NCBI GenBank assembly: GCA_014239555.1 | Contig: JAAZYR010000002.1 | Location: forward strand, 62,001 to 126,000 | Direction of reading: 5' to 3' | Source of the DNA: Acidimicrobiales bacterium | GTDB taxonomy: Bacteria > Actinomycetota > Acidimicrobiia > Acidimicrobiales > Poriferisodalaceae | Length of the DNA: 64,000 bases | In this document: positions 5,206 to 39,621 of the stretch, in pieces | Layout of the letters: each line of letters opens with the position of its first letter | How positions within the stretch are numbered: position 1 is the stretch's first letter | The notes under the pieces: generated by a model | What the model saw: the letters and a program-made list of their open reading frames with translations, nothing else | The model's database searches: none | What the model was told of the DNA's origin: nothing | Made by a program: the position numbers and the translations under genes

Positions 5206-5682
5206 TCAGCCGAAGGTGCCGTAGTTGCCTTGAAAGAAAAGCAGTGGTTCTTTACTTTCCAATACTTCAAGTTCTATGACCCGACCTACAACAATGTGGT
5301 GATCGCCGCCATCGTGTATCGCCTCGATCTCGCAATCAATATAGGCAATCGAGCCAGCGATAATTGGCGACCCAGATGGGCCTGGGGACCACTCTACGTC
5401 GGCGAATTTGTCATCTGAACGGCTTGCCATTACTCCGCAAACCTCCATTTGATCTTGACCCATGACGTTGACGCAAAATGAACCCGAGGCACGGATTTCT
5501 TCCCAGGATCCGGACTCTTTCCCAGGCAAAAAAGCCACCAAAGGAGGGTCAAGGGACACGGACGTGAAAGAGCCGATGGCCATGCCGACTGGCTGCCCAT
5601 CATTGACCGCGGTCACTGCAGTGACCCCTGTAGCAAAATGCCCCAACACGTTTCGGAAAACTCCAGAATCGATATCGCTCAC
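5206..5682 (-). CDS. Flavin reductase family protein (FMN-binding split barrel)
   Basis: A 158-residue flavin reductase-like protein, expected to use NAD(P)H to reduce free FMN or FAD, often for a partner monooxygenase. I chose the GTG at 5682 because AAGGAG lies 6 nt upstream and the peptide then begins with the family start (FRNVLGHFATGVTAVTA). SFTSVSLDPPLVAFLPGKES is the classical flavin-binding segment and GGDHHIVVGRVIELEV the conserved histidine segment. It diverges from the thioredoxin-fusion/UGSC operon across about 94 bp that should carry both promoters. Two-component monooxygenase partners could be the FMN-type enzyme at 42 kb, but that link is a guess. Confidence 0.9.
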   Translation of the reverse strand: MSDIDSGVFRNVLGHFATGVTAVTAVNDGQPVGMAIGSFTSVSLDPPLVAFLPGKESGSWEEIRASGSFCVNVMGQDQMEVCGVMASRSDDKFADVEWSPGPSGSPIIAGSIAYIDCEIEAIHDGGDHHIVVGRVIELEVLESKEPLLFFQGNYGTFG

Positions 5683-5776
5683 CGTGGCTCCTTGTTCGAA
5701 GACTCCGCCGGAGCGTAGCGCCGGAAGCAAGCCCGCTGTTTCGAACTCGTCATCGGATGCGATTATCGTCGCCTGT

Positions 5777-7225
5777 ATGAGTCAAACCGAGGTACCTGAT
5801 TTACCAGATGGTCTCGTGGCGGTCGTAAAGCAAGATTGCCCTACGTGTGAGTTGATCACTCCTGTTCTTCTCGAGTTAGCGGAGAAGTCTGATCTGACGG
5901 TCTTCAGTCAGGACGATCCGAGTTTTCCCGCAGAAATCAGCAACCGACTGTTGGACGTTGATTTAGCCATCTCTTGGCATCACGACATTGAAACGGTTCC
6001 AACACTTCTGCTCGTCCGAAATGGCGAAGAAATAGATCGAACTGTCGGTTGGTCACGTCCTCAGTGGGAACGAGTGTCTGGAGTGTCAGAACTTGGGATT
6101 GACTTGCCAGACCAGCGGCCGGGCTGCGGTTCAATGTCCGTCGATCCGTCATTAATCACTGAACTCACTGTCAGATTCGGTGGATCCGAACTCCTGGGAA
6201 GGCGCATCGAATTCGCGTCTCTGGAGGACACCCATGAAGCTTTGTTTGAAAGAGGCTGGACGGATGGGCTACCTGTAGTTCCGCCCACCGAGGCCCGCGT
6301 ACTCGCGATGCTTGAAGGCACTACTCGTTCACCTACGGACATTGTTGCAACTGTCCCACCCAACTTAGTGCCGTGCACTGTCGAAAAAGTCGCCGTTAAC
6401 GCTGTGATGGCTGGGTGCCGACCCGAATATCTTCCCGTGGTGCTTGCGGCTGTGGAGGCAGTGTGTACAGATGGGTTCAACATGCATGGCTTGTTGGCAA
6501 CGACCATGCCTCATGCTCCAGTGCTCGTCATCAACGGGCCGATTGCCACACAAATTGGCATGAACTCCGAGAACAACGCGTTCGGTCAGGGAAACCGGGC
6601 TAACAGCACCATTGGGCGTGCCCTTCAACTAGTTATACGAAACATCGGGGGCGGACGACCGGGGGAAGTTGACCGAGCAGCGCTTGGTTCTCCCGCCAAG
6701 GTCGGATTCTGTTTTGCTGAACGAGAGGCGGACTCACCCTGGACACCGATTTCGACGATGTACGGATTCCCGAGCGGAACGAACACAGTTTTAGCTTTCC
6801 CAGGGGAAGCCCCAAGAAATGTCGTGGATCAGTTATCACGAGACCCTGAGTCTCTAGCCCGCACCTATGCCGCAAATCTGATCTCGATTCAGCACCCAAA
6901 ACTTATTCTGGGCTTCGACGCAATCTTGGCGGTGGCACCTGACCACTCCCGGATCTTCGGTGATGCGGGTTGGTCACGAGAGAAGCTAGTTGATCGGATT
7001 GTTGCACTGACCGTTAGACCTGGGAAGGAATTGATCCGAGGGGCAGGGGGGATTCCAGAAGGCCTACCTGAAGCAATGGCAGACCTCGATCTTCCAAAAT
7101 TCCGCCCTAATGGGTTACACATAGTGCATTGTGGTGGCGGAGCCGGACTGTTTTCGGCAATTATTGCGGGGTGGGTGAACGGCGAAATGGGGTCGGACCC
7201 AGTTTGCGTCGAAATCATTCCGTAA
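5777..7225 (+). CDS. Thioredoxin-domain fusion protein, partner of the UGSC selenoprotein
   Basis: A 482-residue two-part protein. Residues 1 to about 105 form a thioredoxin-like domain with Cys21-Pro-Thr-Cys24 and a cis-proline at Pro75 (ETVPTLLLV). A linker with PGCGS (Cys117) leads to a large domain of about 350 residues that I cannot assign to a named enzyme. That domain begins WTDGLPVVPPT and contains NAVMAGCRPEYLPVVLAAV, MNSENNAFGQGNRAN and a glycine-rich GGGAGLFSAIIAGW near the end. I recall similar sequences as conserved hypothetical proteins near UGSC proteins. The stop is 13 bp before the selenoprotein start, so the two form an operon. A role in delivering electrons to the selenocysteine is inferred. 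The ATG at 5777 is chosen because an earlier start would run into the divergent flavin reductase gene. Confidence 0.72.
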   Translation: MSQTEVPDLPDGLVAVVKQDCPTCELITPVLLELAEKSDLTVFSQDDPSFPAEISNRLLDVDLAISWHHDIETVPTLLLVRNGEEIDRTVGWSRPQWERVSGVSELGIDLPDQRPGCGSMSVDPSLITELTVRFGGSELLGRRIEFASLEDTHEALFERGWTDGLPVVPPTEARVLAMLEGTTRSPTDIVATVPPNLVPCTVEKVAVNAVMAGCRPEYLPVVLAAVEAVCTDGFNMHGLLATTMPHAPVLVINGPIATQIGMNSENNAFGQGNRANSTIGRALQLVIRNIGGGRPGEVDRAALGSPAKVGFCFAEREADSPWTPISTMYGFPSGTNTVLAFPGEAPRNVVDQLSRDPESLARTYAANLISIQHPKLILGFDAILAVAPDHSRIFGDAGWSREKLVDRIVALTVRPGKELIRGAGGIPEGLPEAMADLDLPKFRPNGLHIVHCGGGAGLFSAIIAGWVNGEMGSDPVCVEIIP

Positions 7226-7238
7226 CAAGGGAGAACCT

Positions 7239-7754
7239 ATGACCAAGGTGCTAGATCCAACCAACGAGACGGAACCTGCAAAGATTCCGCGAGTTGATCG
7301 CCCGACCAGCCTTGATGGCCTAACCGTGGGTTTACTGGACATCAGCAAACCTAGAGGCGACCGCTTTCTCGACCGGATCGAAGAACGCCTGGTCGAGCGC
7401 GGACTTCGCGTGGAGCGGTTTCGTAAGCCAACTTTCACCAAACCAGCTCCTGTTGATTTACGTCACGAAATCGCCACTAAGTGCGATGTGGTGATCGAGG
7501 CCCTAGCCGATTGAGGCAGTTGCACGTCATGCAGTGTGCATGACATCGCTGACCTGGAACGACGTGGGCTTCCAGGGGTTTTTGTAGCTACGACCCAGTT
7601 CATTGATGGAGCCGAAGTGCAAGGAAAGTCTCTGGGGTTTGATCCGGCCGCTGTTTGGGTCGAACACCCGATTCAGGATCGTACTGACGACGAGATGGTG
7701 ACGATTGCCGACAAAGCAATCGACGAGCTACTTGATCAAATCACCAAGCAGTAA
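7239..7754 (+). CDS. UGSC-family selenoprotein (TGA at 7512-7514 read as selenocysteine)
   Basis: One 171-residue gene interrupted by an in-frame TGA. Reading TGA as Sec92 gives ALAD-U-GSCTSCSVHD, the defining U-G-S-C motif of the UGSC (seleno)protein family, whose function is unassigned. Both flanks are in the same frame and both look like real protein: before it, TVGLLDISKPRG starts a Rossmann-like fold, and after it comes LERRGLPGVFVATTQF. The start ATG at 7239 has GGGAG 6 nt upstream. A hairpin of bacterial SECIS type follows the TGA. The motif U92-x-x-C95-x-x-C98 resembles the U-x-x-C-x-x-C centre of glycine reductase protein B. It is the second gene of an operon with the thioredoxin fusion, and its 3' end overlaps mutY by 27 bp. 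Standard gene calling would give two fragments (7239-7514 and 7536-7754). Confidence 0.9.
7515..7549 (+). promoter_or_regulatory. Bacterial SECIS element of the UGSC selenoprotein
   Basis: Immediately 3' of the TGA, GTCATGC (7526-7532) pairs perfectly with GCATGAC (7538-7544) around the 5-nt loop AGTGT. The loop starts 18 nt after the TGA and has G as its second base, which meets the known bacterial rules (about 16-37 nt spacing, short apical loop with G among the first two bases). A lower GC/GC pairing (7522-7523 with 7548-7549) across a small internal loop extends the stem. The element lies inside coding sequence, as bacterial SECIS elements do, and would recruit SelB charged with Sec-tRNA. 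Confidence 0.85.
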
Positions 7755-8636
7755 CACATCGCCTTGAGATGCAACGAGACCTTCGTCTCGGAGATCATTT
7801 ACCAGTTGAACTGCGCGACGTTGTTCGTCAACCAGTCCCATGACTGAAGCCGCATCGGACATTTCCACTGAACCTTGAGCTAACGCCGACAACAGCCGTC
7901 CCCTCGCTTCACGATTACTTCCACGGAATGGTTGTTGTCTTTTACTGACTCCCGCGCTTCCTTCGGCAGGGTCCTTACCTGTTCCTTGCCACGCACACCA
8001 TGACTCCACGGGGCAGCTACGACATTGGGGATTTCGTTTAGTGCATACGGTCGCAGCCAGGTCGAACAGCCCCTGGTTCCAGTCCCATGACTGGCCAGGT
8101 GCCACGATCTTGTCGGCTAGCTCCTGGGCATCTTTTGGACGCAGGGAATTACCACACCAACGAGCGAGCAATCGACCCACGTTGGTGTCCACCACACCCA
8201 GTTGTTTTTCGAAGGCAAAAACCATTACCGCCCTCGCCGTATATGGACCCACCCCCGGTAGTTGCAGAAGTTGATCTAACTCCTGTGGGACTCTGCCTTG
8301 ATGCAGGTTCGTTATCTGTTGCGCCGCCTGATGAAGGTTTCGGGCTCGGCGCGGGTATCCGAGCCCTGTCCAAAACTTCAGTAACTCGGAAAGCTGGACC
8401 CGAGCAAGATCTTCGGGCGTTGGCCAGAAATTCAAAAATTCTAAGTATTTGGCTTCGGCTCTACTGACCTGTGTCTGTTGGAGCATCACCTCCGAGACCA
8501 ACACGGCCCAGGAGTCTCGTGTTGAACGCCACGGTAGATCGCGTCGCGATTTGGCTGCCCAACGAAGGAGGGCGCTGGTAAAGCCACTCCCTTCTAGCGT
8601 GCCTTGAAACTCAACGATTTCAGGTGTTGACGCCAT
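7728..8636 (-). CDS. mutY: A/G-specific adenine DNA glycosylase MutY
   Basis: A base-excision repair enzyme that removes adenine mispaired with 8-oxoguanine. Of the 302 residues, the HhH-GPD domain carries Glu49 (SEVMLQQTQV), the helix-hairpin-helix LPGVGPYTARAV and catalytic Asp151 (VVDTNVGR). Four cysteines at 199, 206, 209 and 215 have exactly the spacing of the MutY [4Fe-4S] cluster. The protein is about 50 residues shorter than E. coli MutY and ends with a winged-helix-like segment instead of the usual NUDIX-like 8-oxoG recognition domain, as in some actinobacterial forms. The 3' end overlaps the convergent selenoprotein gene by 27 bp. Confidence 0.93.
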   Translation of the reverse strand: MASTPEIVEFQGTLEGSGFTSALLRWAAKSRRDLPWRSTRDSWAVLVSEVMLQQTQVSRAEAKYLEFLNFWPTPEDLARVQLSELLKFWTGLGYPRRARNLHQAAQQITNLHQGRVPQELDQLLQLPGVGPYTARAVMVFAFEKQLGVVDTNVGRLLARWCGNSLRPKDAQELADKIVAPGQSWDWNQGLFDLAATVCTKRNPQCRSCPVESWCAWQGTGKDPAEGSAGVSKRQQPFRGSNREARGRLLSALAQGSVEMSDAASVMGLVDEQRRAVQLVNDLRDEGLVASQGDVLLLGDLIK

Positions 8637-38475: not shown

Positions 38476-39621
38476 TTAACGGTCCCCCGGGGCCATATAA
38501 AACCAAATGGGTTCTTTTTCGCCAGCATCGGCCATGGCTTGCCTAGCATTCATCAAGACTTTTCCCGCCTCGGTGTGGTCTAAAAACCAGCGCGTGCCGG
38601 CCCAAGCTGCCGGGGCGTGATCCGACAACGCGAGTGCCGCAGTTTCGTAGTAACCACGAATGTCCTGGCTGACTCGAGCCGGGATTCCGGGAACATTTGC
38701 CTCTTTCCAGGGGACGCCGCCAGCGATTTTTATGAAGGCGTCTATAGCGCTAGTAATGCCTTCCGCTTCCACTGTGCGACCGGCCCCAACCCTATTTCCG
38801 TATTTGGCGATGGCTCTGTCATATGCCGGTCGCAGTCCATTGGCCTCGTCGATAGCGGGGTGCGCATTTGGGTCATGCCTCGCTGGTAACGGACAGGCCA
38901 TTACTTCGCTGCCGTCATCCACGATGCTGACGTCGTATTCAGCAAATACCGGCTCGGAACTGGATAACAAATCGAATGCCGCGCTCAATACTCGGTGCTG
39001 GAACTCTGGGTCTAAGGGGACACCCAGCGGCCTACCCAAGGGGAAGTCGCACCACAGGCCCCTCGGGGGTGCAGTCGATTCAATTTGGTTCTTGATCGAC
39101 CCAAGCGCAACAGTGGCGATGCCTTCGGCCTCAAAAACGTGTGCAAGCGTACTCACGGTACGGGTACAGAGTGGTCAGACCGGCGTCAGTATGACTACGT
39201 CGACACCTTGTTCTTTCAGAAACTTCGCTCCGGCCGGTCCACTGTCTAGCCTCACCGCCGAAAGGTCAAATTGGTTGCCTGCGTAAGCTAGATGCTCATC
39301 AGCCACCGAGCCGATGGTCCCATTTGCAACAAGTTCATCTAGCCGATCGATGGGGAAAACCGTGTTGATGTCGAGAGCAAAACCGGTCACGTCGAAGTTC
39401 GGACTCCAATGGCCCATGACGTAGTCACGAGGTTGCGACTTCAGAATCCGGTAGCCCGTATCAGCCGGGGCAAAGTCCTCATCATGTGGGTGGTGCAACG
39501 ATGCCGAGGTCACGATCGCAACTTTTGCCTCGTTGAGGGGAACGGGAATGGTGAAAGCCGTCTCTTCGAATTCAATTCGATCTAAGCCAGCTGTCATTGC
39601 CTTAACGTCGCTGTCTGCCAT
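38476..39621 (-). CDS. Selenoprotein of the glycine/sarcosine/betaine reductase B family (TGA at 39177-39175 as Sec)
   Basis: A 381-residue gene split by an in-frame TGA. Reading it as Sec149 gives ILTPV-U-PLCTRTVSTLAHVFE, the family's Sec motif (hydrophobic-x-T-P/S-x-U-x-x-C-T-R). Sequence on both sides fits the GrdB/PrdB-like family: VAIVTSASLHHPHDEDF and a proposed Zn/substrate segment DINTVFPIDRLDELVANGTIGSVAD before it, and WCDFPLGRPLGVPLD after. A SECIS-type hairpin follows the TGA. No GrdA or GrdC gene is near, so it is an orphan B-like protein as found in other aerobes; the reaction is unknown, possibly reductive cleavage of a C-N or C-S bond. It is the fourth gene in the run from PhyH to MFS. 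Ordinary calling gives two fragments (39621-39175 and 39156-38476). Confidence 0.9.
39142..39168 (-). promoter_or_regulatory. Bacterial SECIS element of the GrdB-like selenoprotein
   Basis: On the minus strand, 3' of the TGA, CGTAC (39162-39158) pairs with GTACG (39152-39148) around the loop CGTGA (39157-39153). The loop begins 17 nt after the TGA and its second base is G, as bacterial SECIS rules require. Below a 2x2 internal loop a lower stem continues (T-A, G-C, T-G wobble, A-T). It lies within the coding region and would bind SelB. Confidence 0.82.

Follow-up and report, generated by a model that had tools for sequence, protein, structure and literature searches.

A UGSC-family selenoprotein with an adjacent thioredoxin-linked partner gene: candidate subunits of a reductase of small-molecule catabolism

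The window analysed here is a 64,000-nucleotide stretch of an Acidimicrobiales genome, and it carries at 7239..7754 on the forward strand a gene of the UGSC selenoprotein family. The gene starts with ATG (7239-7241) behind a ribosome-binding-like GGGAG (7229..7233, +), ends with TAA and is open in frame apart from a single TGA at 7512..7514 (+). Read through, it encodes 171 residues plus stop, with selenocysteine (Sec) at position 92 within ALADUGSCTSC. An initial annotation of this DNA had joined two in-frame halves across the TGA and assigned the product to the UGSC family, and both proposals held. The protein scored 151.7 bits against NF041046 ('UGSC family (seleno)protein', NCBIfam equivalog; cutoff 125, profile positions 1-146 of 147) and 145.7 bits against PF24696 (Pfam UGSC; cutoff 25, positions 1-171 of 172). 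By these matches it is an authentic member of an already known family: like the 'UGSC-containing protein' of the relevant passages of PMC2398784, it carries the U-G-S-C motif, whose first position is taken by Sec or Cys, it matches the family profiles over their full length, and no feature sets it outside the family. Those passages put the family on record in 2008, with 255 Sec sequences in GOS, which places it among the most abundant selenoprotein families in aquatic microbes. No function had been assigned to it in the literature searched. The motif reads UGSC in the window protein and 80 relatives and CGSC in distant homologues. Cys95 (codon 7521..7523, +), the putative resolving thiol of the U-x-x-C motif, is near-invariant in the distant alignment A4, unlike C98. 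The 3' end of the gene (7728-7754) overlaps a convergent MutY-type gene (7728-8636, -) by 27 bp.

We scanned GTDB genomes and obtained 80 relatives of 65-99% identity, giving 81 loci with the own-genome copy. All 81 have TGA at the position of residue 92, which rules out a sequencing error. Distant homologues carry a Cys codon (TGC or TGT) exactly there, as the initial annotation had anticipated; these comprise L103, L119, L122, L123 and six plasmid copies. Among 11 close relatives, codons past the TGA differ by 367 synonymous and 42 non-synonymous changes, so that this half, previously described as protein-like, is on codon evidence under purifying selection.

A SECIS-type hairpin follows the TGA on the same strand, with stem 7526-7532/7538-7544 and loop AGTGT at 7533-7537. 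Its 7-bp stem, its loop beginning 18 nt past the TGA and the G at loop position 2 agree base for base with the earlier description. The folding check proposed at that time gave a divided answer: RNAfold forms the stem, additionally pairing A7533 with U7537 to give 8 bp and a GUG loop, but the energy is unremarkable (z -1.7; 15 of 200 shuffles equally good), and a search of Rfam returned no SECIS match in the window. Because folding energy alone is unexceptional, we judged the hairpin by comparative evidence. The third positions of the S97 and H101 codons covary, both synonymously, with TCA/CAT at 25 of the 81 loci, TCG/CAC at 46, ACG/CAC at nine and the single G-U intermediate TCG/CAT at one, while C98 (TGC), S99 (AGT) and V100 (GTG) are codon-invariant (81/81). 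In more distant relatives with C98W, the partner base in codon 100 changes too, compensating a C-G pair to G-C. Over the whole stem, 94.6% of cells are paired in 37 distinct sequences, and the covariation score of 0.155 (shuffled mean 0.066) was reached by 0 of 500 shuffles. The stem is not kept in the actinobacterial Cys-type homologues that were folded.

The Sec machinery expected by the initial annotation was found in full. The own genome (2.72 Mb, 95.6% complete) carries selA, selB, selC (tRNA-Sec, anticodon TCA) and selD, together with two further UGSC paralogues, each with one TGA. The selD gene (L021, G000:C44:173025-173966) itself reads through a TGA, making SelD a selenoprotein as well. 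Among 27 UGSC genomes, selA is present in 23. Of the four others, G102 and G150 have UGSC copies without TGA, in keeping with the Sec assignment, and G036, a 94% complete MAG, has a Sec-UGSC with no selA detected, probably a gap. The fourth, G136, bears a divergent UGSC-partner fusion (L171:7414-9024) with 'GDMGTS' in place of 'GDUGSC', apparently a Sec- and Cys-free variant judging by its sequence. Homologues lacking both residues had been named in advance as evidence against the Sec assignment; U or C does occupy position 92 in the relatives and in Cys-type distant homologues, and G136 has neither, so the outermost members of the family need not use this residue.

These results almost certainly mean that residue 92 is selenocysteine, inserted with the help of SelB, tRNA-Sec and the hairpin that directly follows the UGA, as far as comparative genomics can indicate. 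On the contrary reading, the TGA would be a genuine stop, a reassigned codon or an error in the sequence, and translation with Sec would not continue into the frame beyond it; this reading draws on the default meaning of the codon and on the weak folding energy. We give it a negligible probability against the TGA kept at every locus, the purifying selection beyond it, the covarying stem, the complete Sec machinery and three TGA-bearing UGSC paralogues in one genome.

Immediately upstream of the UGSC gene lies a gene for a 482-aa protein (5777..7225, +), here called the partner, whose AlphaFold2 model divides into a thioredoxin-like N-terminus and a C-terminal domain of about 320 residues. The first 110 residues match TIGR01068 (E 1.4e-4) and, in Foldseek and VIA-align, thioredoxins; they contain a CPTC motif (residues 21-24, 5837..5848, +) of which C21, T23 and C24 are invariant in alignment A2. 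The C-terminal domain (residues 163-482, 6263..7222, +) is common to all UGSC-linked partners and conserves DGLP, AGCxP, RANxxIGRA and E315, with the Cys214 of AGCxP (codon 6416..6418, +) 97% conserved. Its 320 residues gave no Pfam match even at E 10 and no NCBIfam match; the Foldseek and VIA-align lists for the whole partner were filled by matches of the thioredoxin domain, and neither the partner nor UGSC had a relative among the sequences of solved structures. A flavin reductase-like gene (5206-5730, -; PF01613, E 1.8e-44) is divergently oriented to the partner gene in close relatives, and many other relatives have it no more than a few kb off; it could supply electrons or simply be a neighbour.

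The partner adjoins UGSC in 79 of the 80 relatives, and in the 80th the contig ends beside UGSC. A survey of 396 actinobacterial genomes found UGSC in 27; every one of these also has the partner, which is present in just one genome besides. The C-terminal domain also adjoins both other UGSC paralogues of the own genome, and every distant actinobacterial locus fetched and above cutoff has it beside UGSC or fused to it. The same adjacency recurs in Acidovorax, Roseovarius, Arthrobacter, Embleya and three haloarchaea. The partner stop overlaps the UGSC start in many relatives, and in G136 the two genes form one stop-free frame of 583 aa. Because the linkage is universal and a natural fusion exists, UGSC is very probably the small Sec-bearing subunit, and the adjacent partner product the other subunit, of a two-subunit enzyme. 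A UGSC fusion with an uncharacterised 'Unknown_1' was reported from GOS (PMC2398784, Figure S1A), and this is probably the partner domain described here; the fusion is common to both accounts, and the main-text passages of that paper bearing on it do not describe a universal gene linkage.

Several loci depart from this one-to-one arrangement. Two haloarchaea (L181:6888-9587 and L182:6920-9582) have a Cys-type UGSC gene with partner homologues on both sides, a gene order that would fit a complex with two distinct large subunits. A fourth partner copy of the own genome, with thioredoxin and C-terminal domains (L204:5422-6994, G000:C2), has no UGSC beside it and stands directly after tpiA within a gap-pgk-tpi-secG region; it may share a UGSC subunit from another locus. 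One genome (L205, G183:C272) has several partner-like domains, two of them consecutive in each of two long frames, and no UGSC above cutoff.

Thioredoxin recurs around the pair in different forms. In the lineage of the window, a CPTC thioredoxin is fused into the partner; the gene order is trxB-trxA-partner-UGSC in Arthrobacter and partner-UGSC-trxB in Roseovarius. These fused or neighbouring genes link the UGSC-partner pair to thioredoxin, whether UGSC is of the Sec or the Cys form.

The UGSC protein is also related to the Sec subunits of glycine and proline reductases. As a single sequence it matched TIGR01917 (GrdB) around the Sec with E 2.9e-4, at 19.9 bits against a cutoff of 602, and a Pfam scan up to E 0.1 returned no whole-protein match to PF07355. 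In profile comparison, hhalign aligned the UGSC profile with GrdB/PrdB-like selenoproteins of the same class, Sec on Sec, at 92% probability (E 5.6e-7), with a score of 53.5; none of 40 column-shuffled controls exceeded 19.7. Masking Sec and Cys95 left E at 4.5e-5, and neither a reversed profile nor the comparison of UGSC with the partner's thioredoxin domain gave similarity. The similarity spans only about 88 columns, over which the Sec domain is homologous to that of GrdB/PrdB (PF07355, TIGR01917) and shares the following G-I/L-P and HP segments; a U-x-x-C type motif is common to UGSC and PrdB-like members. Thioredoxin, the probable reductant of UGSC, also serves glycine reductase. It differs from GrdB in lacking the large N-terminal part, in scoring below the family cutoffs, in adjoining a partner other than GrdE and in its hosts, which are of aerobic type and include haloarchaea. 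We considered the partner as a relative of GrdE and rejected this (hhalign probability 0.1%; no PF09338 in the own genome). Since the partner is unlike GrdE, the substrate half differs; UGSC is not a glycine reductase and has only the Sec domain in common with it.

The AlphaFold2 model of UGSC is confident (pLDDT 90.8). Strand and helix alternate in it five times, and Sec92 falls where strand 3 (84-90) gives way to the helix that follows (93-108). Flavodoxins are among its top Foldseek matches, and VIA-align listed generic Rossmann-like folds with Z up to 11; a search by sequence found no solved GrdB structure for comparison. The predicted fold is thus flavodoxin-like, and model and matches speak against the Trx-like fold that PMC2398784 proposed in 2008. 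The reading that goes with that suggestion, UGSC as a Trx-like oxidoreductase, can appeal to the published statement, to the U-x-x-C motif and to the thioredoxin genes near the Roseovarius and Arthrobacter copies. We regard it as unlikely, given not only the model but also the missing profile similarity to the partner's thioredoxin domain, the clear similarity to GrdB/PrdB and neighbourhoods that are catabolic rather than of stress genes.

Those neighbourhoods bear on function. Short-chain dehydrogenases (SDR), amidohydrolase-2, class III CoA-transferase, enoyl-CoA hydratase and transporters recur among the 102 genes around distant copies, within which no single recurrent pathway was found. 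The neighbours of paralogues and distant copies further include isopropylmalate/tartrate-type dehydrogenase, HpaI-type aldolase, isocitrate lyase/PEP mutase and TRAP, TTT and ABC transport. They differ between paralogues and name no single pathway. Given this catabolic setting, we prefer a reductive step that thioredoxin drives and that acts on small metabolites.

A different use of the same parts would be protection. Selenocysteine together with thioredoxin is typical of peroxidases, and UGSC and the partner could form an enzyme that removes peroxides or electrophiles and guards catabolic pathways, Sec being peroxidatic. Besides this combination, a paper to which PMC3091704 refers reports, by its title, peroxidase activity of GrdB, which speaks for such a role. 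Profile scans gave no peroxidase family match, however, and the paralogues are associated with transporters and with pathways for a variety of substrates, so we consider protection improbable, somewhat more so than the Trx-like reading.

The best overall explanation, to which we assign a probability of roughly 60%, is that UGSC and the partner constitute a thioredoxin-driven two-subunit Sec reductase of small-molecule catabolism that works in a GrdB/PrdB-like manner. Sec92 would act as the attacking selenolate from the end of strand 3 in a domain that is flavodoxin-like and related to the Sec domain of GrdB/PrdB. Cys95 would resolve the selenium once oxidised, and re-reduction would fall to thioredoxin, which is part of the partner here and encoded alongside it elsewhere. 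Taken jointly, these three steps are probable; Sec92 and Cys95 are the only near-invariant Sec/Cys pair. That Sec92 would be the catalytic residue of a redox enzyme had already been inferred in the initial annotation, and the role is strengthened by the GrdB/PrdB homology, the thioredoxin linkage and the near-invariant UxxC pair. The partner domain would hold the substrate, with the conserved Cys214, RANxxIGRA and E315. For the reaction itself, we tentatively suggest that thioredoxin drives the reduction, or the reductive cleavage, of a small organic acid or of a metabolite from CoA pathways, by analogy with glycine or D-proline reductase.

A bolder version, which we hold to be rather doubtful, would make UGSC and the partner a third branch in its own right within the glycine/proline reductase superfamily, one that tolerates oxygen. 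Its enzyme would have two subunits, use Sec or Cys, be driven directly by thioredoxin and reductively cleave a bond in metabolites of aerobic catabolism. Such a branch would be spread across Actinomycetota, Pseudomonadota and haloarchaea and be common in aquatic microbes. Glycine-reductase-type Sec chemistry may, then, operate in aerobes. As a selenoprotein the window protein is ordinary, and the interest lies in its partner, its connection to thioredoxin and its kinship with GrdB/PrdB, which together give a concrete, testable hypothesis for a widespread family. To the published picture of that family these three points are additions, the partner being obligate, and so is a predicted fold that differs from the Trx-like guess in print.

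The partner gene, the UGSC paralogues and a second selenoprotein gene of the window were absent from the initial annotation. This second gene, at 38476-39621 (-) with its TGA at 39175-39177, encodes a short PrdB/GrdB-like protein in which 148 aa precede the TGA and the frame continues as ILTPV-U-PLCTRTV, with a UxxC motif and a small hairpin after it. Two more copies lie in the genome, at C7:30623-30976 and C1:118127-118495.
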